This document shows positions 10,356-20,922 of a stretch of 20,922 nucleotides of DNA, in pieces. A model generated the notes under the pieces. The model was not told the DNA's origin. It saw nothing but the letters and a program-made list of their open reading frames with translations, and did not search any database. Position numbers and translations under genes: made by a program. Each line of letters begins with the position of its first letter. Position 1 is the stretch's first letter. This DNA comes from a virus. Location: IMG/VR virus record IMGVR_UViG_3300043446_002407, positions 1 through 20,922 of that record. One strand, 5' to 3'.

Positions 10356-10420
10356 GACTTACACAGGGTAAGTTTTATGCGGAAGTTCAACCGCGTACGG
10401 CCTAGAACGCCGTGATTTTT
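10356..10420 (+). promoter_or_regulatory. Structured 5' leader with three consecutive hairpins
   Basis: Hairpin 1 pairs GACTTAC (10356-10362) with GTAAGTT (10368-10374). Hairpin 2 pairs ATGCGG (10377-10382) with CCGCGT (10391-10396), allowing one T-G pair. Hairpin 3 pairs ACGGC (10397-10401) with GCCGT (10409-10413) and is followed by GATTTTT and then at once by the AAGGAG of the next gene (10421-10426). Hairpin 3 plus five T resembles an intrinsic terminator or attenuator. A 12-codon frame (ATG 10377 to TGA 10415) spans hairpins 2 and 3. The pairing is visible in the sequence, but its regulatory role is inferred. Confidence 0.45.
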
Positions 10421-10434
10421 AAGGAGAAAATAAA

Positions 10435-11436
10435 ATGGGACGTCCTCTAAACAAGAAATATTTCGGTAACCGCAACCAGGGTACCGGTGGTTACGAAGTA
10501 ACTGGTAACCTATCTAACAGCCAAAACTATGCTGACGATCGTATCGGCGGTGAAGGCGTTGACTATATCAACTGGTCAACACTAGGTGCTTTCCGTGGTA
10601 ACGGTACATTTGGTATCACTGGCCTAGCATTGCCAGCACCATCCCTACCAGGCGGTGTGCAAGCAACTTGGACCTTGCTATTTGAAGTTGAAGGTGTTTC
10701 AACTGGTGCAGGTAAAACTAACCTAGCAGTTGGCGACACTTTTGGCCACGCAAGCATTCCTGGATTGATCGCTAAAGTAACTGACCTGAGTGGTGCTAAC
10801 GCGGTATTCAGCGTAACAGCCTCTGGCGCTAGCCGTGGTAACGCACTTGCTTATGCTTCATTATTGGCAGACACACAGGGCCTAACATTAACAAAGATTG
10901 CTGGTAGTGGTACTGCTAGCACGTTCCTAGTTGACTTAAACTACCGCGTCAAGTCAGCCGCTATTGTTGAAAAAGGTTCTGGTTACACTGGTACAGAAAC
11001 ATTCACAGCAGTTGTAACAGGTAACGGCGGTTCACAGACTGCTCCAGCAGGTACACTAGTGTTGACTACTGACAGCGGTGCAGTTGGTTCATCAACTAAC
11101 CAAGAAAACGCTATCATCATGTACGCTAACACAAGTGGTTCAGGTTCTACAGGCCTCGCCGCTGACGTTATCAAACAAGTGAACACACGCACTTACAAAG
11201 TCAAAACATCTGACGGTATTGGTAAAGTAAAACTAAGTACTGATTCTACACCTGCTACAGGTTATGCTTATATGGTTGCCACTTCTGCATCTGGCGCAAC
11301 TTATTATGTTACCAAGCTGACAGCACACCGAGCTACACTGGTTGCCAAGACTGGTGACGAGGCACTGGACGGTATGTCAGTACAGTGGACATTGGGTTCA
11401 CCAACTGGTTCTATTGTACAGATCGAAAATGCCTAA
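10435..11436 (+). CDS. Virion structural or head decoration protein candidate (333 aa)
   Basis: The product begins MGRPLNKKYFGNRNQ, a start that I associate with structural proteins of environmental T4-like phages. The rest is Gly/Thr/Ser/Ala-rich and beta-like, without long helices or membrane segments. 'VEKGSGYTGTETFTAVVTG' (about 179-197) is a recognisable motif of such virion proteins, and the C-terminal part (YKVKTSDGIGKVKL and on) is also beta-rich. Its place just after the capsid gene and its own promoter and terminator suggest a highly expressed shell decoration or head-associated protein, although a tail-associated role is possible. AAGGAG (10421-10426) is 8 bases from ATG 10435. I do not know an exact family. 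Confidence 0.75.
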   Translation: MGRPLNKKYFGNRNQGTGGYEVTGNLSNSQNYADDRIGGEGVDYINWSTLGAFRGNGTFGITGLALPAPSLPGGVQATWTLLFEVEGVSTGAGKTNLAVGDTFGHASIPGLIAKVTDLSGANAVFSVTASGASRGNALAYASLLADTQGLTLTKIAGSGTASTFLVDLNYRVKSAAIVEKGSGYTGTETFTAVVTGNGGSQTAPAGTLVLTTDSGAVGSSTNQENAIIMYANTSGSGSTGLAADVIKQVNTRTYKVKTSDGIGKVKLSTDSTPATGYAYMVATSASGATYYVTKLTAHRATLVAKTGDEALDGMSVQWTLGSPTGSIVQIENA

Positions 11437-12055: not shown

Positions 12056-14653
12056 ATGGCGAATACCAATTTCGTAGTAAAAAATGGCCTAACCGTAGGC
12101 AATTTAACCGTTGATGCAAACGGCGTAGTCGCCACATCCGGTAATATCTCTACCACTGGAACATTTTTAGGTAATATTACTGGAACTGGTAACAGCAGCA
12201 TTGCCAACTTATCCGTAACCAGTAACGTAGCAAGTACCAGCAAGACCACAGGCGCACTGATTGTAACAGGCGGTGTGGGCGTTAGCGGCAACCTGCAGGC
12301 TAACGCAATTTATACAGACAACCATTTGTTCGCCAACGGCGTGAACATCTTAACAACACTGACCTCTAGTGTTGACACTGTCAGTAACGCACTGAGCGTT
12401 GAGACGGTAAATCGTGTCAGTGCAGACAACGCACTAAGCGTCAGAGTTGATACAGTCAGCAATGCAGTTAGTATTGTAAGTCAAGCCCTATCAGTTGAGA
12501 CGGCCAACCGCATATCTGCAGGCAATGCTCTAAGCGTTCGCATTGATACACAAAGTAATGCCATCAGCGTTCTAAGCCAACAGGTATCAGTACTGAGTGT
12601 ACAAATTAACACTGTCAGCAATGCGGTATCAGTTGTAAGTCAGGCATTGAGTGTTGAGACTGCTAACCGTATTTCGGCAGTCAATGTTGTAAGCAATGCA
12701 GTCAGCATTGTCAGTCAAGCCCTATCAGTTGAAACGGTAAACAGAACTAGTGCAGATAATGCACTGAGTGTTCGTATTGACACCGCCAGCAACGCAGTCA
12801 GCATTGTAAGCCAAGCCTTATCAGTTGAAACAGTAAACCGTGTCAGTGCTGATAACGCACTGAGTGTTCGTGTTGACACTGTTAGTAACGCAGTATCTAT
12901 CGTCAGCAACGCACTGAGCGTTGAGACAGCAAACAGAATTTCCGCAGACAATGCCTTAAGCAATTTAATTAGCGCATTGAGCAACTCAATTTCAGTCACA
13001 TACGTCCACAAATCGGGCGACACGATGACTGGCAACTTGTTGGTTCCTAACCTACAAGTAACAAGTTCACTAAACAGTTCATCAACATCAAGTGGCGCAT
13101 TAGTTGTCACTGGTGGTGTTGGTATTGGTGCCAACCTGAACGTGGGTGGTATTGGTAACTTCTACAGCAACGTTGTAATTACTGGTAACCTGATTGTTCA
13201 AGGTAATACCACAGTTGTTGGTAGCAACAACTTTGCCACAACCGACAACGTGATGGAGCTTCATGCTGCCAACATTGCCAATGTTGCACAACCCTGGACA
13301 CTAGACGACGGTAAAGATATCGGTTTCCGTTTCCACTATTACAAGTCTGGTGCCGACAACAATGCCTTCCTGGGATTTGCCAATGACACCAGTTACCTAG
13401 AGTGGTATGGATCAGGTGCTGAAGGTGTTAATACTTTTACTGGTACCTATGGTACATTCAAGACTGGTAATTTGATTCTAACTGGCGATGCCACCATCAA
13501 TGGTGTCAGCGTATTAGCAAGATTTGATACACTAAGCAATGCCATTTCAGTCGTAAGCCAAGCAGTATCAGTAGAGACCGCAAATAGAACATCGGCTGAT
13601 AACGCATTAAGTGTCCGTATCGACACAGTCAGTAATGCGGTCAGTATTGTAAGTCAGGCACTGTCAGTTGAGACCGCAAATAGAACATCAGCTGATAACG
13701 CATTAAGTGTTCGCATTGACACTGTCAGTAATGCAGTATCAGTTGTTAGCAATGCACTAAGCGCAGAAATTGTCAACCGTATCAGTGCAGATAATGCACT
13801 AAGCAATTTAATCAGTGCAGAGATAGTCAACCGTACCAGTGCTGACAACGCCCTAAGCGTTCGTATTGATACTGTCAGCAATGCAGTATCACTTGAAATT
13901 GCAAATAGAACAAGTGCAGATAACGCATTGAGTGTTCGCATCGATACAGTCAGTAATGCGGTATCAGTAGTAAGTCAGGCCCTATCAGTTGAAACTGCCA
14001 ACCGAATTTCAGCTGTAAACGTGGTCAGCAACGCAGTGAGCGTTGAGATTGCCAACCGTACTAGTGCTGATAATGCCCTAAGTGTAAGAATTGATACCGT
14101 CAGCAATGCGGTGTCCATTGTCAGCAATGCATTAAGCGTAGAGACGGCAAATAGAACAAGTGCTGACAATGCACTGAGCGTTCGCATTGATACAGTCAGT
14201 AATGCGGTATCACTTGAAATTGTCAACCGTACTAGTGCAGTAAACGCATTGAGTAACAGCATCAGTGTTACATACGCACCCAAGGCCAACCCTGCATTTA
14301 CTGGCAATGTCACAATTAACACCAGCAGTAGCTTTAGTGCTAATGCGGTAACAGCCGCTGGCGTAACACAGACTCAGATTGACAGTTTCCCAATCACAGA
14401 TTTCAGAACAGTTAAATATATTGTTCAAGTATATGACAACGGTGGTACTGTTAAGTATCACAGCAGTGAGATTTTAATCGTACATGATGACACCAGTGTT
14501 TACATGGTAGAGTACGGCGAAATAACATCAAACGGAACGATCGGAACCTTTACGGCCACTATCCAGACCGGTATTGTGAAATTGTTGTTTACTGGATCAG
14601 CTTCTGGTACCAACAAGACCGTCAAAGTACAAAGGACAGCAGTTGTGACCTAA
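12056..14653 (+). CDS. Long tail-fibre-like protein with coiled-coil repeats (865 aa)
   Basis: This is probably a homotrimeric fibre for host contact. Layout by residue: 1-100 beta-repeat N-terminus (MANTNFVVKNGLTVGNLTV and on, with TGALIVTGGVGVSGN); about 100-310 first coiled coil; about 315-486 a 'TGALVVTGGVGIGANLNV' module and a compact knob containing 'DDGKDIGFRFHYYKSGADN' and 'NDTSYLEWYGSGAEG'; about 487-735 second coiled coil; about 738-865 a C-terminal tip starting 'YAPKANPAFTG' and containing 'SSEILIVHDDTSVYMVEYG'. That tip pattern is one I recall from virion proteins of marine T4-like phages. Eleven copies of ADNAL mark the coiled-coil repeat. The ribosome-binding site is weak (TGGAAAA). 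The next fibre gene follows 52 bases later without a TAAATA box, so the two are probably co-transcribed. Confidence 0.85.
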   Translation: MANTNFVVKNGLTVGNLTVDANGVVATSGNISTTGTFLGNITGTGNSSIANLSVTSNVASTSKTTGALIVTGGVGVSGNLQANAIYTDNHLFANGVNILTTLTSSVDTVSNALSVETVNRVSADNALSVRVDTVSNAVSIVSQALSVETANRISAGNALSVRIDTQSNAISVLSQQVSVLSVQINTVSNAVSVVSQALSVETANRISAVNVVSNAVSIVSQALSVETVNRTSADNALSVRIDTASNAVSIVSQALSVETVNRVSADNALSVRVDTVSNAVSIVSNALSVETANRISADNALSNLISALSNSISVTYVHKSGDTMTGNLLVPNLQVTSSLNSSSTSSGALVVTGGVGIGANLNVGGIGNFYSNVVITGNLIVQGNTTVVGSNNFATTDNVMELHAANIANVAQPWTLDDGKDIGFRFHYYKSGADNNAFLGFANDTSYLEWYGSGAEGVNTFTGTYGTFKTGNLILTGDATINGVSVLARFDTLSNAISVVSQAVSVETANRTSADNALSVRIDTVSNAVSIVSQALSVETANRTSADNALSVRIDTVSNAVSVVSNALSAEIVNRISADNALSNLISAEIVNRTSADNALSVRIDTVSNAVSLEIANRTSADNALSVRIDTVSNAVSVVSQALSVETANRISAVNVVSNAVSVEIANRTSADNALSVRIDTVSNAVSIVSNALSVETANRTSADNALSVRIDTVSNAVSLEIVNRTSAVNALSNSISVTYAPKANPAFTGNVTINTSSSFSANAVTAAGVTQTQIDSFPITDFRTVKYIVQVYDNGGTVKYHSSEILIVHDDTSVYMVEYGEITSNGTIGTFTATIQTGIVKLLFTGSASGTNKTVKVQRTAVVT
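12365..12990 (+). repeat. Coiled-coil repeat array, first fibre gene, segment 1
   Basis: The array encodes 32-residue units made of SVETxNR, xSADNAL, an 11-residue piece SVRxDTxSNAV and SIVSQAL, with shorter 25-residue variants. The DNA copies differ widely at third codon positions while the protein is held. Confidence 0.85.
13200..13530 (+). repeat. Knob domain, copy 1 (paralogous to 16378-16708)
   Basis: The domain aligns without gaps to the second copy at a constant offset of 3178 bases. The stretch from KSGADNNAF to SGSGAEG-like 'WYGSGAEG' is identical in protein in both genes, while the DNA differs mostly at third positions. Confidence 0.85.
13520..14265 (+). repeat. Coiled-coil repeat array, first fibre gene, segment 2
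   Basis: The array holds seven ADNAL copies, including a fairly recent 96-base tandem pair beginning at 13574 and 13670 (GAGACCGCAAATAGAACATC in both). Confidence 0.85.
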
Positions 14654-14705
14654 TACTTTTATTCATTATTAGTATTGGGTCCGCTTTAGTGGAGAGTGAA
14701 ACTAA

Positions 14706-17700
14706 GTGGCAATTAACAAAGATTTCGTCGTCAAGAATGGCATTTCAGTTGCGGCTGATGCCAACGTTGCTGGTAACGTAAATATCACCAGCAATATCAG
14801 TAGTACCAGCACCAGCACGGGTGCATTAAAGGTCACTGGCGGCGCAGGCATTACCGGAAACGTTAATACAGGTGCCATTTACACAGACAACTATTACTGG
14901 GCCAATGGTACACCATTCGTCAGTAGTGCATTCAAATATACCGCATCCAATACCGCGCCCACTAGTCCCAGCAACGGTGACGAGTGGTTCAATACAGACA
15001 CCAATACATTGTATGTTCGTGCCAATGACGGCACCAGCTCATTCTGGTTAGACTTAACCACAACCCCACAAGTTACATCGACGCCCAATCTGTCGATCAC
15101 TGACTCCACTGCCAGCGGTAACCTGACAACTGGTGCATTAACTGTTGCTGGCGGCGCTGGCATTTCTGGTAATTTACGGGCCAATGCAGTCTATACAGAC
15201 AATTATTACTATGCCAACGGCGTGGCATTTAGCCCAGATGCTATCAGCAACACACTGAGTATTGAAACTGTAAACCGTGTAAGTGCAGATAATGCACTGA
15301 GCGTTCGCATCGATACTGTCAGCAATGCAGTGTCCATTGTCAGCAACGCATTGAGTGTTGAGACGGTAAACAGAACAAGTGCTGACAATGCACTGAGTTT
15401 GCGTATTGATGCAATCAGCAATTATGCGTCAGTAACCAGTCAACAACTGTCAGTTGAGACTGCCAATAGAACGTCCGCAGATAACGCACTGAGCGTTCGT
15501 GTTGACACTGTTAGCAATGCAGTGTCTGTTGTTAGTCAGGCACTATCACTCGAAACAGTTAACCGAACAAGTGCTGACAATGCACTGAGTTTGCGTATTG
15601 ATGCAATCAGTAACTATGCGTCAGTGACTAGCCAACAGTTGTCCGCTGAAATTGCCAACAGAACATCGGCTGACAATGCACTGAGTGTTCGCGTTGACAC
15701 TGTTAGCAATGCAGTGTCAGTTGTCAGCCAGGCCCTGAGTGTTGAAACAGCCAACCGTATCAGCGCAGTTAATGTGGTTAGTAATGCAGTGTTAGTTGTC
15801 AGCCAGGCCCTGAGTGTTGAAATCGCAAACAGAACGTCGGCTGACAATGCGTTAAGTGTCAGAATTGATACCGCAAGCAATGCAGTCAGCATTGTTAGCC
15901 AGGCATTGAGTGTTGAAACCGTAAACAGAACGTCAGCCGACAATGCACTGAGTGTTCGTGTTGACACTGTTAGTAATGCAGTAAGTAACGAAATATCCAA
16001 TCGCATCAGTGCTGATAATGCGCTGGGTTTAAGAATTGATACTGTCAGCAATGCAGTCAGTATTGTAAGCCAAGCACTGAGTGTAGAAACTGTCAACCGC
16101 ACTAGTGCAGATAATGCACTGAGCGTTCGTGTTGATACGGTCAGTAATGCCGTTTCAATTGTCAGTCAGGCACTGAGTGTAGAAACTGCTAATCGCATCT
16201 CAGCAGTCAATGTGGTCAGTAATGCACTATCAGTTGAGATAGCAAATAGAACATCAGCTGACAATGCACTAAGCAATCTGATTAGTGCATTAAGCAATAA
16301 CATTTCTGTTAACTATGCCCGTTTGAGTGGTGCAACATTCAGCGGCAACGTTACTATTGCAGCCAACTTGGTCGTCAGTGGCAATACTACGATTATTGGT
16401 AGTAACAATTACGCCACCACTGACAACATTATTGAATTACATACACCCAATGTGGCCAATATTGCACAACCTTGGAGTGTAGACGACGGTAAAGACATTG
16501 GTATTAGAATTCACTATTACAAGTCAGGTGCTGATAACAATGCTTTCCTTGGCTTTGCAAATGATACCAGTTACCTAGAATGGTATGGATCAGGTGCAGA
16601 AGGTGGTAATGTCTTTACCGGTACTTACGGCACATTTAAGACTGGTAACCTAATCTTAACTGGCGACGCTACTATTAGCGGTGTCAGTGTGTTGGCAAAG
16701 CTGGATTCATTAAGCAATTCTATATCAGTTGTCAGTCAAGCCCTATCAGTTGAGACAGCCAACCGCATTAGCGCGGTTAACGTGGTCAGCAATGCAGTTA
16801 GTATCGTAAGTCAAGCCCTATCAGTTGAGACAGTCAATCGCGTAAGCGCAGATAACGCATTGAGCGTTCGAATTGATACAGTCAGCAATGCCGTATCAGT
16901 CGTAAGTCAGGCATTATCAGTAGAAACTGCTAATAGAGTATCAGCAGTAAACGTAGTCAGTAACGCATTATCAGTTGAGATAGCAAACAGAATATCCGCA
17001 GACAATGCCCTAAGTAATCTAATTTCTGCGCTGAGTAATAGTGTATCAGTCACGTATGCACCCAAGGCCAATCCCACATTCACTGGTACACTAACTGGCG
17101 ACATCATTGCGTCTACAAATAATGGCAACGGTACTAACTTTAAAGTTGGTGATGACATATGGATTGGTGATGTTAACCAAGCCAATGCCTTGCGTCTGAC
17201 AGGCCAACAAGATGGTACTCAGGGTTACATTATATTTGGTAACAGTAACACTCAGACATTGGGTCGTAGTGGCACTGGTGCATTAACATATCAGGGCGCA
17301 TTTACAGCACAGGGTGGTATTCAGAATACTCCAATTGGTAATGCCACTGCCAGCACTGGTGCGTTCACCACATTAACAGTAAATGGTGTGAACGTCGCCG
17401 CGGCAATTGATACGATCAGCAATGCGGTTAGTATTGTCAGTCAGGCACTGTCAGTTGAGACAGCAAATAGAACATCAGCTGACAACGCACTGAGTGTTCG
17501 CATTGACACAGTCAGCAATGCAGTATCAATCGTTAGCCAGGCACTGTCAGTTGAGACAGCAAATAGAACATCAGCTGACAACGCACTGAGTGTTCGCATT
17601 GACACAGTCAGCAATGCAGTGTCAGTTGTAAGTCAAGCATTGAGTGTTGAGACTGCCAATCGGGTGTCAGCAGTTAATGTGGTTAGTAATACTCTAAGCG

Positions 17701-19943
17701 TTGAAATAGCTAACCGTATCAGTGCTGATAATGCATTGAGCAATTTAATTAGCGCACTGAGTAACAGTGTATCAGCCACATACGTAAACAAGACAACCGC
17801 AGTAGTCAACAACCAATTGGTTGTTGTTGCCCCATCACCAGTAACTGAAGGTGGCCAGATTGTTCTAGCTTGGGCTAACATTTCAGGTATCACTGGGCAA
17901 GCTAACAGCACCTGGAACATTGATGTCGATGGCACCAATAGCCTGCGCTTCTTCTATCAGAATGCCGCAGGTGCGACTGCTGTACCACTTTCGATTACAC
18001 AATCCAACGGTAACGTTAACGTTTTAGGTAACATACTGGCATCCAATTACTATTGGTCCAATGGCGTCGCACTAACCACAGTTGTGGATTCCATCAGTAA
18101 CGCTATATCAGTTGTCAGTCAAGCACTGAGTTTAGAAACTGCCAACCGCGTCAGCGCCGTTAATGCACTAAGCAACACACTGAGTGCAGAAATAGCAAAT
18201 AGAACCAGTGCAGACAACGCACTGAGTGTTCGTATTGATGCAGTCAGCAACGCAGTGTCTGTTGTAAGTCAAGCACTGTCAGTGGAGACAGCCAATAGAG
18301 TTAGCGCAGTCAATGTGGTCAGCAATGCACTATCAGTTGAAACTGCAAACCGAACATCAGCAGACAACGCATTAAGTGTTCGCATTGACGCGGTCAGTCA
18401 GGCAGTTAGCATCATTAGCCAGGCATTATCAGTTGAGACTGCGGCCCGCGTTAGTGCTGATAATGCACTGAGCAATTTGATCAGTCTGGTCAGTGTGCGT
18501 GTTGACAGTATCAGCCAGGGATTGTCATTAATTAGTAATGCACTGAGTGCAGAAATTGCCAACAGGACCAGTGCAGACAACGCACTGAGTGTTCGTATTG
18601 ATGCAGTTAGCCAGGCAGTCAGCGTGGTAAGCCAGGCACTGTCAGTGGAAACAGCGGCACGTATAGCCGCAGATAATACCATCAGCAATGCAGTATCGGT
18701 TGTCAGTCAGGCGCTATCAGTAGAAACGGCCAATAGAATTTCCGCAGTTAATGTGGTTAGTAATGCATTATCGGTTGAGACAGCCAATCGCATTAGCGCA
18801 GACAATGCACTGAGCAACCTAATTTCAGCATTAAGTAACTCAGTATCAGTTACCTACGCACCTAAAGCTAACGCCACGCTGACTGGTACTACCAATATTG
18901 GCACACTAAATGTCAGCGGTGACACTGTGTTGTCAGGTAACTTGACAGTTAACGGCAGCGTGGAAACTGTCAATAGTACCACTGTTACTATTAACGACAA
19001 GAATATTTTAATTGCAAATAATGCAAGCACTAGTGCTACCATTGACGGTGGTGGTATTGATGTGGGTCAGGGCCCAGTCACGTATTTGCGATATCTCCAT
19101 GCCAATCTAGGCTGGTATACTGCTAACAATTTTGGTGTAGGTGGAACTCTAACAGTTGCGGGCACTAATATTGTTCTTGCAATTGACACTGTTAGTAACG
19201 CAGTCAGCGTAGAAACAGTAAACCGAATCAGTGCTGATAATGCATTAAGTGTCAGAGTTGACACTGTCAGCAATGCAGTCAGCATTGTCAGTCAGGCGCT
19301 GTCAGTTGAGACGGCCAACCGAATCAGTGCTGATAGCGCATTAAGCGTTCGTCTTGATGACATTGTCAGTTCTGGAACTGCCAACCGTATTAGTGCAGAT
19401 AACGCACTGAGTGCCAGAATTGATATTGTCAGCAATGCAGTATCAGTTGTAAGTCAAGCATTGAGTGTTGAAACAGCCAACCGTATTTCAGCAGTTAATG
19501 TGGTCAGCAACGCACTGTCAGTTGAAACAGCCAACCGTATCAGCGCAGACAATGCCCTGAGCAATCTGATCAGTGCGTTAAGTAATTCAGTTTCAGTAAC
19601 GTATGCGCCCAAGGATGCGCCATCATTTACTAGCAATGTGGTAATAAATGGTAATGCCGCAATTTATGGCAATACTATCAGTTCCAGCACTGGAACAGGT
19701 GCCCTGACAGTAACTGGTGGTGTGGGTGTATCGGGTAACATTTATGCTGGTGCGTTTTTCTTTGCGAACGGCACAGCAGTGGGAACAGGTGGCGGTGGCA
19801 GCGATTACGTAGTATCAAATATGCCATATTTGATAAATGCGGGCGAGACCTATTATGTGAGAGCCAACACACAAGCATTATTCGTGCTTCCGATCGAAAT
19901 TAACGGTGATCTGGAAGTGAACGGGATTTTAATAGAAGTGTAA
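14706..19943 (+). CDS. Giant tail-fibre-like protein, beads-on-a-rod architecture (1745 aa)
   Basis: This is probably a trimeric long fibre. By residue: 1-75 N-terminus (MAINKDFVVKNGISVAADA, with TGALKVTGGAGITGN), paralogous to the N-terminus of the 865-residue protein; about 80-120 a 'SNGDEWFNTDTNTLYV...DGTSSFW' domain; about 134-175 another TGAL/GG/SGN module; then five coiled-coil segments (about 178-531, 661-778, 900-1021, 1128-1381, 1491-1628). Four beta-rich knobs separate the segments (about 533-661, 781-898, 1022-1126, 1382-1491). The tip (about 1630-1745) ends 'IEINGDLEVNGILIEV', a phrase typical of fibre C-termini. I count 23 ADNAL copies. The start is GTG at 14706, with GGAGAG (14691-14696) 9 bases upstream. 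The matching N-terminal sequence of the sister gene supports it. The stop overlaps the promoter of the next gene. Confidence 0.85.
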   Translation: MAINKDFVVKNGISVAADANVAGNVNITSNISSTSTSTGALKVTGGAGITGNVNTGAIYTDNYYWANGTPFVSSAFKYTASNTAPTSPSNGDEWFNTDTNTLYVRANDGTSSFWLDLTTTPQVTSTPNLSITDSTASGNLTTGALTVAGGAGISGNLRANAVYTDNYYYANGVAFSPDAISNTLSIETVNRVSADNALSVRIDTVSNAVSIVSNALSVETVNRTSADNALSLRIDAISNYASVTSQQLSVETANRTSADNALSVRVDTVSNAVSVVSQALSLETVNRTSADNALSLRIDAISNYASVTSQQLSAEIANRTSADNALSVRVDTVSNAVSVVSQALSVETANRISAVNVVSNAVLVVSQALSVEIANRTSADNALSVRIDTASNAVSIVSQALSVETVNRTSADNALSVRVDTVSNAVSNEISNRISADNALGLRIDTVSNAVSIVSQALSVETVNRTSADNALSVRVDTVSNAVSIVSQALSVETANRISAVNVVSNALSVEIANRTSADNALSNLISALSNNISVNYARLSGATFSGNVTIAANLVVSGNTTIIGSNNYATTDNIIELHTPNVANIAQPWSVDDGKDIGIRIHYYKSGADNNAFLGFANDTSYLEWYGSGAEGGNVFTGTYGTFKTGNLILTGDATISGVSVLAKLDSLSNSISVVSQALSVETANRISAVNVVSNAVSIVSQALSVETVNRVSADNALSVRIDTVSNAVSVVSQALSVETANRVSAVNVVSNALSVEIANRISADNALSNLISALSNSVSVTYAPKANPTFTGTLTGDIIASTNNGNGTNFKVGDDIWIGDVNQANALRLTGQQDGTQGYIIFGNSNTQTLGRSGTGALTYQGAFTAQGGIQNTPIGNATASTGAFTTLTVNGVNVAAAIDTISNAVSIVSQALSVETANRTSADNALSVRIDTVSNAVSIVSQALSVETANRTSADNALSVRIDTVSNAVSVVSQALSVETANRVSAVNVVSNTLSVEIANRISADNALSNLISALSNSVSATYVNKTTAVVNNQLVVVAPSPVTEGGQIVLAWANISGITGQANSTWNIDVDGTNSLRFFYQNAAGATAVPLSITQSNGNVNVLGNILASNYYWSNGVALTTVVDSISNAISVVSQALSLETANRVSAVNALSNTLSAEIANRTSADNALSVRIDAVSNAVSVVSQALSVETANRVSAVNVVSNALSVETANRTSADNALSVRIDAVSQAVSIISQALSVETAARVSADNALSNLISLVSVRVDSISQGLSLISNALSAEIANRTSADNALSVRIDAVSQAVSVVSQALSVETAARIAADNTISNAVSVVSQALSVETANRISAVNVVSNALSVETANRISADNALSNLISALSNSVSVTYAPKANATLTGTTNIGTLNVSGDTVLSGNLTVNGSVETVNSTTVTINDKNILIANNASTSATIDGGGIDVGQGPVTYLRYLHANLGWYTANNFGVGGTLTVAGTNIVLAIDTVSNAVSVETVNRISADNALSVRVDTVSNAVSIVSQALSVETANRISADSALSVRLDDIVSSGTANRISADNALSARIDIVSNAVSVVSQALSVETANRISAVNVVSNALSVETANRISADNALSNLISALSNSVSVTYAPKDAPSFTSNVVINGNAAIYGNTISSSTGTGALTVTGGVGVSGNIYAGAFFFANGTAVGTGGGGSDYVVSNMPYLINAGETYYVRANTQALFVLPIEINGDLEVNGILIEV
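15240..16300 (+). repeat. Coiled-coil repeat array, giant fibre gene, segment 1
   Basis: This is the longest uninterrupted coiled-coil segment, with ten ADNAL copies. Two units carry the variant SLRIDAISNYAS, found only here, and lie in a 192-base duplicated block (15373 and 15565). Confidence 0.85.
15373..15610 (+). repeat. 192-base spaced duplication with variant units
   Basis: The 46 bases at 15373-15418 are identical to 15565-15610, offset 192 bases (64 codons, two 32-residue units). The DNA on both sides diverges, so a double unit was duplicated and has since drifted. Confidence 0.8.
16378..16708 (+). repeat. Knob domain, copy 2 (paralogous to 13200-13530)
   Basis: The domain contains 'DDGKDIGIRIHYYKSGADN' and 'NDTSYLEWYGSGAEGG', and is followed by GTFKTGNLILTGDATISG. 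It aligns gap-free with copy 1. Confidence 0.85.
17442..17620 (+). repeat. Recent 96-base tandem duplication
   Basis: The 83 bases at 17442-17524 are identical to 17538-17620, offset 96 bases, exactly one 32-residue unit. Other units in the array differ at many third positions, so this copy is young. Confidence 0.9.
18114..18214 (+). repeat. Segment shared with the next fibre gene
   Basis: It matches 20481-20581 at 97 of 101 positions, and its part 18138-18214 matches 20259-20335 at 76 of 77. All three encode LETANRVSA followed by a short LSN...LSAEIANR piece in the same frame. Confidence 0.85.
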
Positions 19944-19946
19944 ATA
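19941..19946 (+). promoter_or_regulatory. Late promoter box (TAAATA) overlapping the giant fibre stop codon
   Basis: The TAA stop codon is the first half of the box. It ends 18 bases before ATG 19965, a spacing like that of the portal gene. Confidence 0.6.
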
Positions 19947-19964
19947 AAGGGTAAGGGAAAAAGA

Positions 19965-20922
19965 ATGTCTTTAATTTTAAAACAGGAATCAAGTGGAAAC
20001 GTCACAGTGCCAGGGTCTGGCAAAGGTGCCGTCTACCTAAATGCGAGCAACCAACTGAACGTTAAAGACAGTTCTGGTAATGTTGCTGCCATCCCTACAA
20101 TTACAGCAACGGCTGACACGGCTGTGGTGTTTAACGATGCTGGCGCATTTGGCCAGACCACAGATTTCACATTTAATAAAACAACCAAAGTTTTAACAGT
20201 GAACGGTGTGGATATTCAGGGTGCCATCAACACTGTTAGTAATTCATTAAGTGTCGAGACTGCCAACCGCGTCAGCGCCGATAATGCACTAAGCAACACA
20301 CTGAGTGCAGAAATAGCAAATAGAACCAGTGCAGATAATGCATTGAGCGTCCGTGTTGACACAGTTAGCAATGCAGTGTCGGTAGTAAGCAACGCACTGA
20401 GCGCAGAGATCGTCAATCGCGTAAGCGCAGATAATGCATTGAGTGTTCGTATTGACACAGTCAGCAATGCCGTTTCAATCGTCAGTCAAGCACTGAGTTT
20501 AGAAACTGCCAACCGCGTCAGCGCCAATGATGCACTAAGCAACGCACTGAGTGCAGAAATAGCAAATAGAACCAGTGCAGATAATGCCTTGAGCCTAAGA
20601 ATTGACAGCATCAGTGGTGCAGTGTCAGTTACTAGTAATGCGTTATCAGCATCCAATTCTCGAATCGATGTGGTAAGTCAAGCAGTATCAGTGGAGACGG
20701 GCAACAGAACGTCAGCTGACAACGCATTAAGTGTTCGTATTGATACTGTCAGTAATGCAGTGTCGGTGGTAAGTAACGCACTATCAGTTGAAACGGCAGC
20801 TCGCATTGCGGCGGTCAATACTGTCAGCAACGCAGTCAGTATTGTTAGCAACGCACTGAGCGCAGAGATTGTCAACCGCACTAGTGCAGATAACGCACTG
20901 AGCGTAAAAATCGACACGGTCA
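19965..20922 (+). CDS. Third coiled-coil tail-fibre-like protein, partial
   Basis: The frame is open from ATG 19965 to the window edge, at least 319 residues, with the C-terminus missing. It begins MSLILKQESSGNVTVPGSG, followed by 'KGAVYLNASNQLNVKDSSG' and 'TVNGVDIQGAINTVSNSLS' (about 78-96), which leads into the same coiled-coil repeat as the two preceding genes, with six ADNAL copies in view. The N-terminus differs from the sister genes (no FVVKNG start), so it probably attaches to a different virion site or partner. AAGGGA (19953-19958) is 6 bases from the ATG, and a TAAATA box lies 18 bases upstream. Parts of its rod are nearly identical in DNA to the giant fibre gene. The tip, which would tell most about function, lies outside the window. 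Confidence 0.85.
   Translation, partial: MSLILKQESSGNVTVPGSGKGAVYLNASNQLNVKDSSGNVAAIPTITATADTAVVFNDAGAFGQTTDFTFNKTTKVLTVNGVDIQGAINTVSNSLSVETANRVSADNALSNTLSAEIANRTSADNALSVRVDTVSNAVSVVSNALSAEIVNRVSADNALSVRIDTVSNAVSIVSQALSLETANRVSANDALSNALSAEIANRTSADNALSLRIDSISGAVSVTSNALSASNSRIDVVSQAVSVETGNRTSADNALSVRIDTVSNAVSVVSNALSVETAARIAAVNTVSNAVSIVSNALSAEIVNRTSADNALSVKIDTV
20259..20335 (+). repeat. Segment shared with the giant fibre gene, copy A
   Basis: It matches 18138-18214 at 76 of 77 bases, the only difference being A at 20281 for T at 18160. Confidence 0.85.
20481..20581 (+). repeat. Segment shared with the giant fibre gene, copy B
   Basis: It matches 18114-18214 at 97 of 101 bases, with the first 45 bases identical. 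Mismatches are at 20526, 20527, 20529 and 20544. Confidence 0.85.

Follow-up and report, generated by a model that had tools for sequence, protein, structure and literature searches.

An uncultured giant phage of the T4-like, jumbo type has three adjacent genes that very probably encode fibers with modular coiled-coil shafts; the shafts are most likely parallel homotrimers and consist of units that keep the helical register. The window (the whole stretch of DNA analyzed, 20,922 bases of IMG/VR record IMGVR_UViG_3300043446_002407) carries a tape-measure-like gene, a portal gene, a scaffold-like gene, and a major capsid gene whose product is 64 to 67% identical to those of the jumbo phages PA5oct, GAP32, and CBB, Vibrio phage 2.275, and Sinorhizobium phage Phosso. 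The three fiber genes, here called A, B, and C, lie downstream of the capsid gene on the plus strand; they lie among virion genes and encode domains common to phage virion proteins, as expected of fibers. Their neighbors and the annotation of homologs of the gene C tip suggest a location in the virion, and the fibers may serve in host adhesion. Contigs L081 and L083 overlap and match the window, although such repeats are prone to short-read misassembly and the agreeing contigs might share the same reads.

All three proteins combine rods with other domains. Gene A (12056 to 14653; 865 aa) runs from a beta-rich N-terminal region (FVVKNGLTV...TGALIVTGGVGVSGN) through rod 1 (residues 116 to 307; 12401 to 12976), a globular domain (TTDN..WTLDDGKDIG..HYY..NDTSYLEWY; 13187 to 13495), and rod 2 (residues 507 to 738; 13574 to 14269) to a C-terminal domain (approximately residues 770 to 865; 14363 to 14653). 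Gene B (14706 to 19943; 1,745 aa, with a GTG start) has five rods with four globular inserts between them: rod 1 (residues 187 to 528; 15264 to 16289), rod 2 (16752 to 17030), rod 3 (17457 to 17756), rod 4 (18135 to 18830), and rod 5 (19212 to 19577). Gene C (19965 to 20922) is cut at the window end, leaving 319 of its 990 aa (an N-terminal domain and the start of a rod); contig L083 completes it and ends it in a C-terminal tip domain, which is 41 to 46% identical to proteins of PA5oct-like, Phosso, and Atu_ph07 phages, some of them annotated as virion structural or baseplate/tail pin proteins. An alpha-helix rises 0.148 nm per residue, at which the summed rod lengths come to approximately 63 nm in A, 132 nm in B, and 82 nm in the complete C.

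The original prediction counted 40 copies of an ADNAL mark, and a DNA pattern search returned exactly these (11 in A, 23 in B, and 6 in C; none with a reversed-pattern control). Every mark sits inside a unit that begins E-[TI]-x-N-R-x-S-A-[DV]-N, and the fixed part of the unit is an anchor of 12 residues, E-[TI]-[AV]-N-R-x-S-A-[DV]-N-[AV]-[LV] (ETANRxSADNAL). Both unit forms quoted from the first inspection, of 32 and 25 residues, are present, along with units of 18, 39, 46, and 53 residues. From residue 13 onward, units of all six lengths are strict heptads: large hydrophobic residues occupy two core phases at 99% and 92% and are absent (0%) from two other phases, which hold Ser, or Ser/Asp. 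The 11-residue piece had been misplaced: the stretch to which it was assigned, SVRIDTVSNAV, runs into SIVSQAL as heptads with no shift of phase, and the sequence places the four-residue offset (stutter) in the anchor instead. Counted from the final Leu/Val of a unit, the first core residue of the next unit's heptads invariably comes 18 residues later; over five turns this gives 3.6 residues per turn, i.e., a stutter spread across two heptads (18/5), as described in standard coiled-coil theory (PMC4786415). The minimal unit accordingly has 18 residues, and longer ones grow by heptads. The nearly invariant anchor residues E1, R5, A8, and N10 lie in the 18-residue stutter stretch; position 9 is D in the longer units and often V in those of 18 residues. 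That the anchor puts E, R, and D near the core is unusual and counts against the coiled-coil model.

In the architecture that we propose, the anchor would supply one four-residue stutter per unit, distributed along some 18 residues (five turns of the helix), and would be followed by ordinary heptads (for example, SVRIDTV, SNAVSIV, and SQALSVE), of which longer units would have more. Each unit (11+7n) would be self-consistent, so that whole units or single heptads could come and go with the core left continuous; rod length could then alter without fiber breakage or loss of helix packing, while the rods hold the globular domains and the C-terminal tip apart.

Listing all units, with the whole anchor as the mark and with genes A and B, the completed gene C, and two genes of a relative (contig L082, whose capsid protein is 99% identical to that of the window) included, yields 106 within-rod spacings: 18 (21 times), 25 (26 times), 32 (48 times), 39 (6 times), 46 (once), 53 (3 times), and 22 (once). 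The proposed 7n+11 rule is obeyed by 105 of them, all in class 4 modulo 7, for which the chance of any one given class would be 1 in 7, with the proviso that unit duplication makes the spacings interdependent. Counted as distinct lengths, six of seven share that class. In order, the spacings are 32, 53, 25, 32, and 32 in gene A rod 1; 32, 32, 18, 25, 32, 18, 32, and 25 in gene A rod 2; five of 32, then 25, 32, 25, 32, 32, and 18 in gene B rod 1; 25, 32, and 18 in rod 2; 32, 32, and 18 in rod 3; 18, 32, 18, 32, 39, 32, 25, and 18 in rod 4; 32, 22, 32, and 18 in rod 5; and, within the window, 18, 32, 32, 18, 46, 32, and 25 in gene C. The exceptional unit (ETANRISADSALSVRLDDIVSS; gene B residues 1535 to 1556; 19308 to 19373) also fits a mix of elevens and sevens, since 22 is twice 11.

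Whether such regularity reflects selection for register, as had been suggested, depends on how much of it unit copying can produce. The lengths could follow from unequal recombination of the repeats at the DNA level, with register selectively neutral beyond the parent unit, and events of this type are on record: gene B rod 3 contains a nearly identical 96-bp pair (17442 to 17624), and gene A rod 1 differs in unit number from its counterpart in L082 by exactly one 32-residue unit, which L082 lacks through a clean 96-bp deletion with in-frame ends. Copying thus explains much of the pattern, and the length rule by itself is only partial evidence of such selection, but six different lengths in a single class modulo 7 go beyond it: DNA self-identity at a lag of 21 bp is only 0.33, versus roughly 0.25 to 0.3 at most other short lags, and with similarity this weak, steps of one heptad are poorly accounted for by homology alone. 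Moreover, fibers of unrelated phages obey the same rule (215 of 234 spacings, as detailed below). We therefore consider it rather unlikely that recombination is the whole explanation and infer that register, rather than copying alone, limits unit lengths.

Structure prediction, the check called for at the outset, returned helical rods. An AlphaFold2 model of the last 100 residues of gene B rod 1 (15990 to 16289), aligned with 13 related rods, is one continuous helix (residues 2 to 99; pLDDT 98), unbroken at the anchors, and every rod has a hydrophobic period of 3.55 to 3.59, near the value that its unit mix predicts. The prediction is thus of a long continuous alpha-helix with a heptad/stutter core, as in a coiled-coil tail fiber. 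A beta-structured rod (a beta-solenoid or triple beta-helix rich in V/S/T), of the kind that forms the shafts of most relatives, would suit the V-, S-, T-, and N-rich composition and the beta-type repeats that those relatives carry, and strands were indeed drawn in the rods of a model of whole gene A, which was made from a two-sequence alignment and discarded (pLDDT 34.5). Against this very improbable fold stand the confident continuous helix obtained once related rods are aligned, the hydrophobic period near 3.56 in every rod, and the homologous modules of other phages, which are rich in helix formers. Several searches were uninformative or rejected: Foldseek found no match for the single modeled helix; Pfam matches to ANC1_spectrin and FixG_C fell below the cutoff; a match of gene C to SF-assemblin, just above the cutoff, was not accepted as homology because it is of the coiled-coil type; and PDB searches with whole proteins A and B gave no hit or a catalase at an E value of 0.3.

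That these helical rods are parallel homotrimers is likely by analogy, because the module occurs in solved chains deposited in threes, i.e., a J fiber (9ze4; 3 chains), gp9 (23sh; 3 chains), and an F2-pyocin fiber (25vf; 9 chains in 3 entries). Against the PDB, the profile of the window itself matches weakly (E values of 0.2 to 0.3); the strong matches (6e-8 and 1e-6) came with the relative from Psychrobacter phage Psymv2 as the query. A long collagen-like shaft on homologous domains in contig L214 also fits a trimeric fiber, although proteins A, B, and C themselves are free of Gly-X-Y collagen repeats.

The window carries the ExxxRxxADxxL module, with its anchor motif at 18+7k spacings, and the same building block is common in phage fibers. 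Scans with the anchor DNA pattern reported 111 stretches of viral contigs and, in a genome collection, one bacterial contig (Maribellus luteus). Spacings in the viral contigs are chiefly 18, followed by 36, 25, 29, 46, and 32; of those under about 70 residues, 215 of 234 fall in classes 4, 1, and 5 modulo 7, the product of one, two, and three stutters, compared with a uniform expectation of approximately 100, a count that serves as a consistency check and not a strict test because some of the 36s and 54s are missed anchors.

Known proteins resemble the window to different degrees. Burkholderia phage KS9 gp19, Psymv2 J, and the protein in PDB 9ze4 share both the anchor and the 32-residue spacing (J-type pattern E-x-x-x-R-x-x-A-D-x-A-L-x-x-R-I-D-T-V), but in them that spacing occurs just four or five times, in a single short run, whereas the window has about 40 units of six lengths in several rods, and no Pfam or PHROG match to the J-protein domains around the repeats was found in A, B, or C. 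The tail fiber of Streptococcus phage S21, the GAP32 adhesin, and many viral contigs have the same anchor in a minimal 18-residue unit; in contrast to these ExxxRxxADxxL fibers, most window units carry one or more extra heptads, rich in V, S, and N. The F2-pyocin tail fiber (PDB 25vf, 25vj, and 26ci) and gp9 (23sh) contain at least one anchor and have their chains deposited in multiples of three, but their match is short and the window's array is long. Prophage collagen-like fibers with PCoil (PMC3368898) also set a trimeric helical rod beside other rod types, but PCoil is Ala/Ser-rich, has almost no Leu or Ile, and follows only a loose seven-residue period, and the window proteins lack collagen.

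Stutters likewise interrupt heptads in the stalks of trimeric autotransporters of the YadA and UspA1 type (PMC4786415), and in GAP32, the protein bearing the 18-residue module has an adhesin annotation that mentions YadA. It is nevertheless extremely doubtful that the rods are bacterial autotransporter adhesin stalks captured by a phage: A, B, and C have no Pfam match to a YadA-type head or a C-terminal membrane anchor, their genes sit directly 3′ of the major capsid gene, and their middle and tip domains are common to phage proteins. Each element of such a coiled-coil phage fiber, namely the module, the arithmetic of the stutters, and helical rods that form trimers, is already known or closely matched by something known, although a limited search of the open-access literature returned no published description of the anchor motif. 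The window is a clean, large example and not a new type of structure; what is new is a length ladder of such size and regularity, joined with shaft exchange in one fiber family. As such, it offers a large natural data set on coiled-coil lengthening in register (105 units, six lengths, and 87 distinct sequences), in which heptads are freely added while one stutter per unit stays fixed, and the anchor motif is a usable signature of coiled-coil rod segments in unannotated phage proteins.

Domains outside the rods recur on fibers with other shafts. The gene A globular domain is present in 75 loci, whose shaft types were classified by regular expressions; among the classified loci, tightly spaced anchors occur only in the window lineage and L082 (L202 to L205), as four other loci labeled “alpha” owe the label to widely scattered matches, and 17 loci were unclassifiable. 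In L085 and L086, the gene A C-terminal domain is conserved but joined to beta-type repeats, for which the sequence suggests a beta fold. The collagen-like shaft of L214 (2 to 3424; long GPQGPQGPIGNTGPQG arrays) accompanies the gene A globular domain at 63% identity and the gene C tip at 55%, in a contig whose sample number is also that of L081 and L083. Because relatives pair the same middle domain or tip with beta or collagen-like shafts, the helical rod is best read as an exchangeable spacer, in a single phage fiber family that keeps its domains while shaft fold differs between members.

A broader and improbable reading holds that the family swaps whole shafts between conserved domains, that the helical version is a quantized spacer evolving in heptad steps, and that the rods may be sugar modified. 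Ser occupies most exposed heptad positions of the rods, and such modification would come from the glycosyltransferase and 2OG-oxygenase genes 3′ of gene C. At that location, L083 (5064 to 8588) encodes a GT8 glycosyltransferase, a product weakly matching 2OG-Fe(II) oxygenases, and a protein that combines MptE-like and FkbM methyltransferase domains; these are possible modifiers of the Ser-rich fibers.

The fiber protein is under strong purifying selection: between the window and L082, dN ranges from 0.01 to 0.06, versus a dS of approximately 1 or more (for the rods, dN of 0.026 and 0.059 and dS of 1.1 and 1.4). Units within the window have a pS of 0.72 (random codons, 0.81) and a pN/pS of 0.19. 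The capsid gene, at a dS of 0.14, is far below the rods. Along gene A (12350 to 14330), synonymous divergence from L082 climbs from approximately 0.1 to 1 or more and is lower again at the C terminus, with a low-divergence patch (0.145) at residues 337 to 384; this pattern marks the gene as a mosaic. The central block was probably swapped with a more distant lineage, with its protein sequence strongly kept; this exchange is preferred over hypermutation as the source of the high rod dS because high divergence is shared by the unique 53-residue unit and by parts of the globular domain.

The interval between the capsid and fiber genes also contains a gene (10435 to 11436) that is just 60% identical to its L082 counterpart, while its neighbors are 97 to 99% identical. 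A match to the Rfam freshwater-2 RNA (RF02980; 71 bits; 10357 to 10437, plus strand) follows the capsid gene and overlaps the start codon of this gene with its 3′ end. Since its position after the capsid gene recurs in two relatives (L082, 2206 to 2286; L004, 11785 to 11872), the RNA appears to be a conserved leader belonging to the gene at 10435. In L004, the capsid gene is followed by two adjoining matches to the glutamine riboswitch (RF01739; 11450 to 11561) and then by the freshwater-2 RNA.
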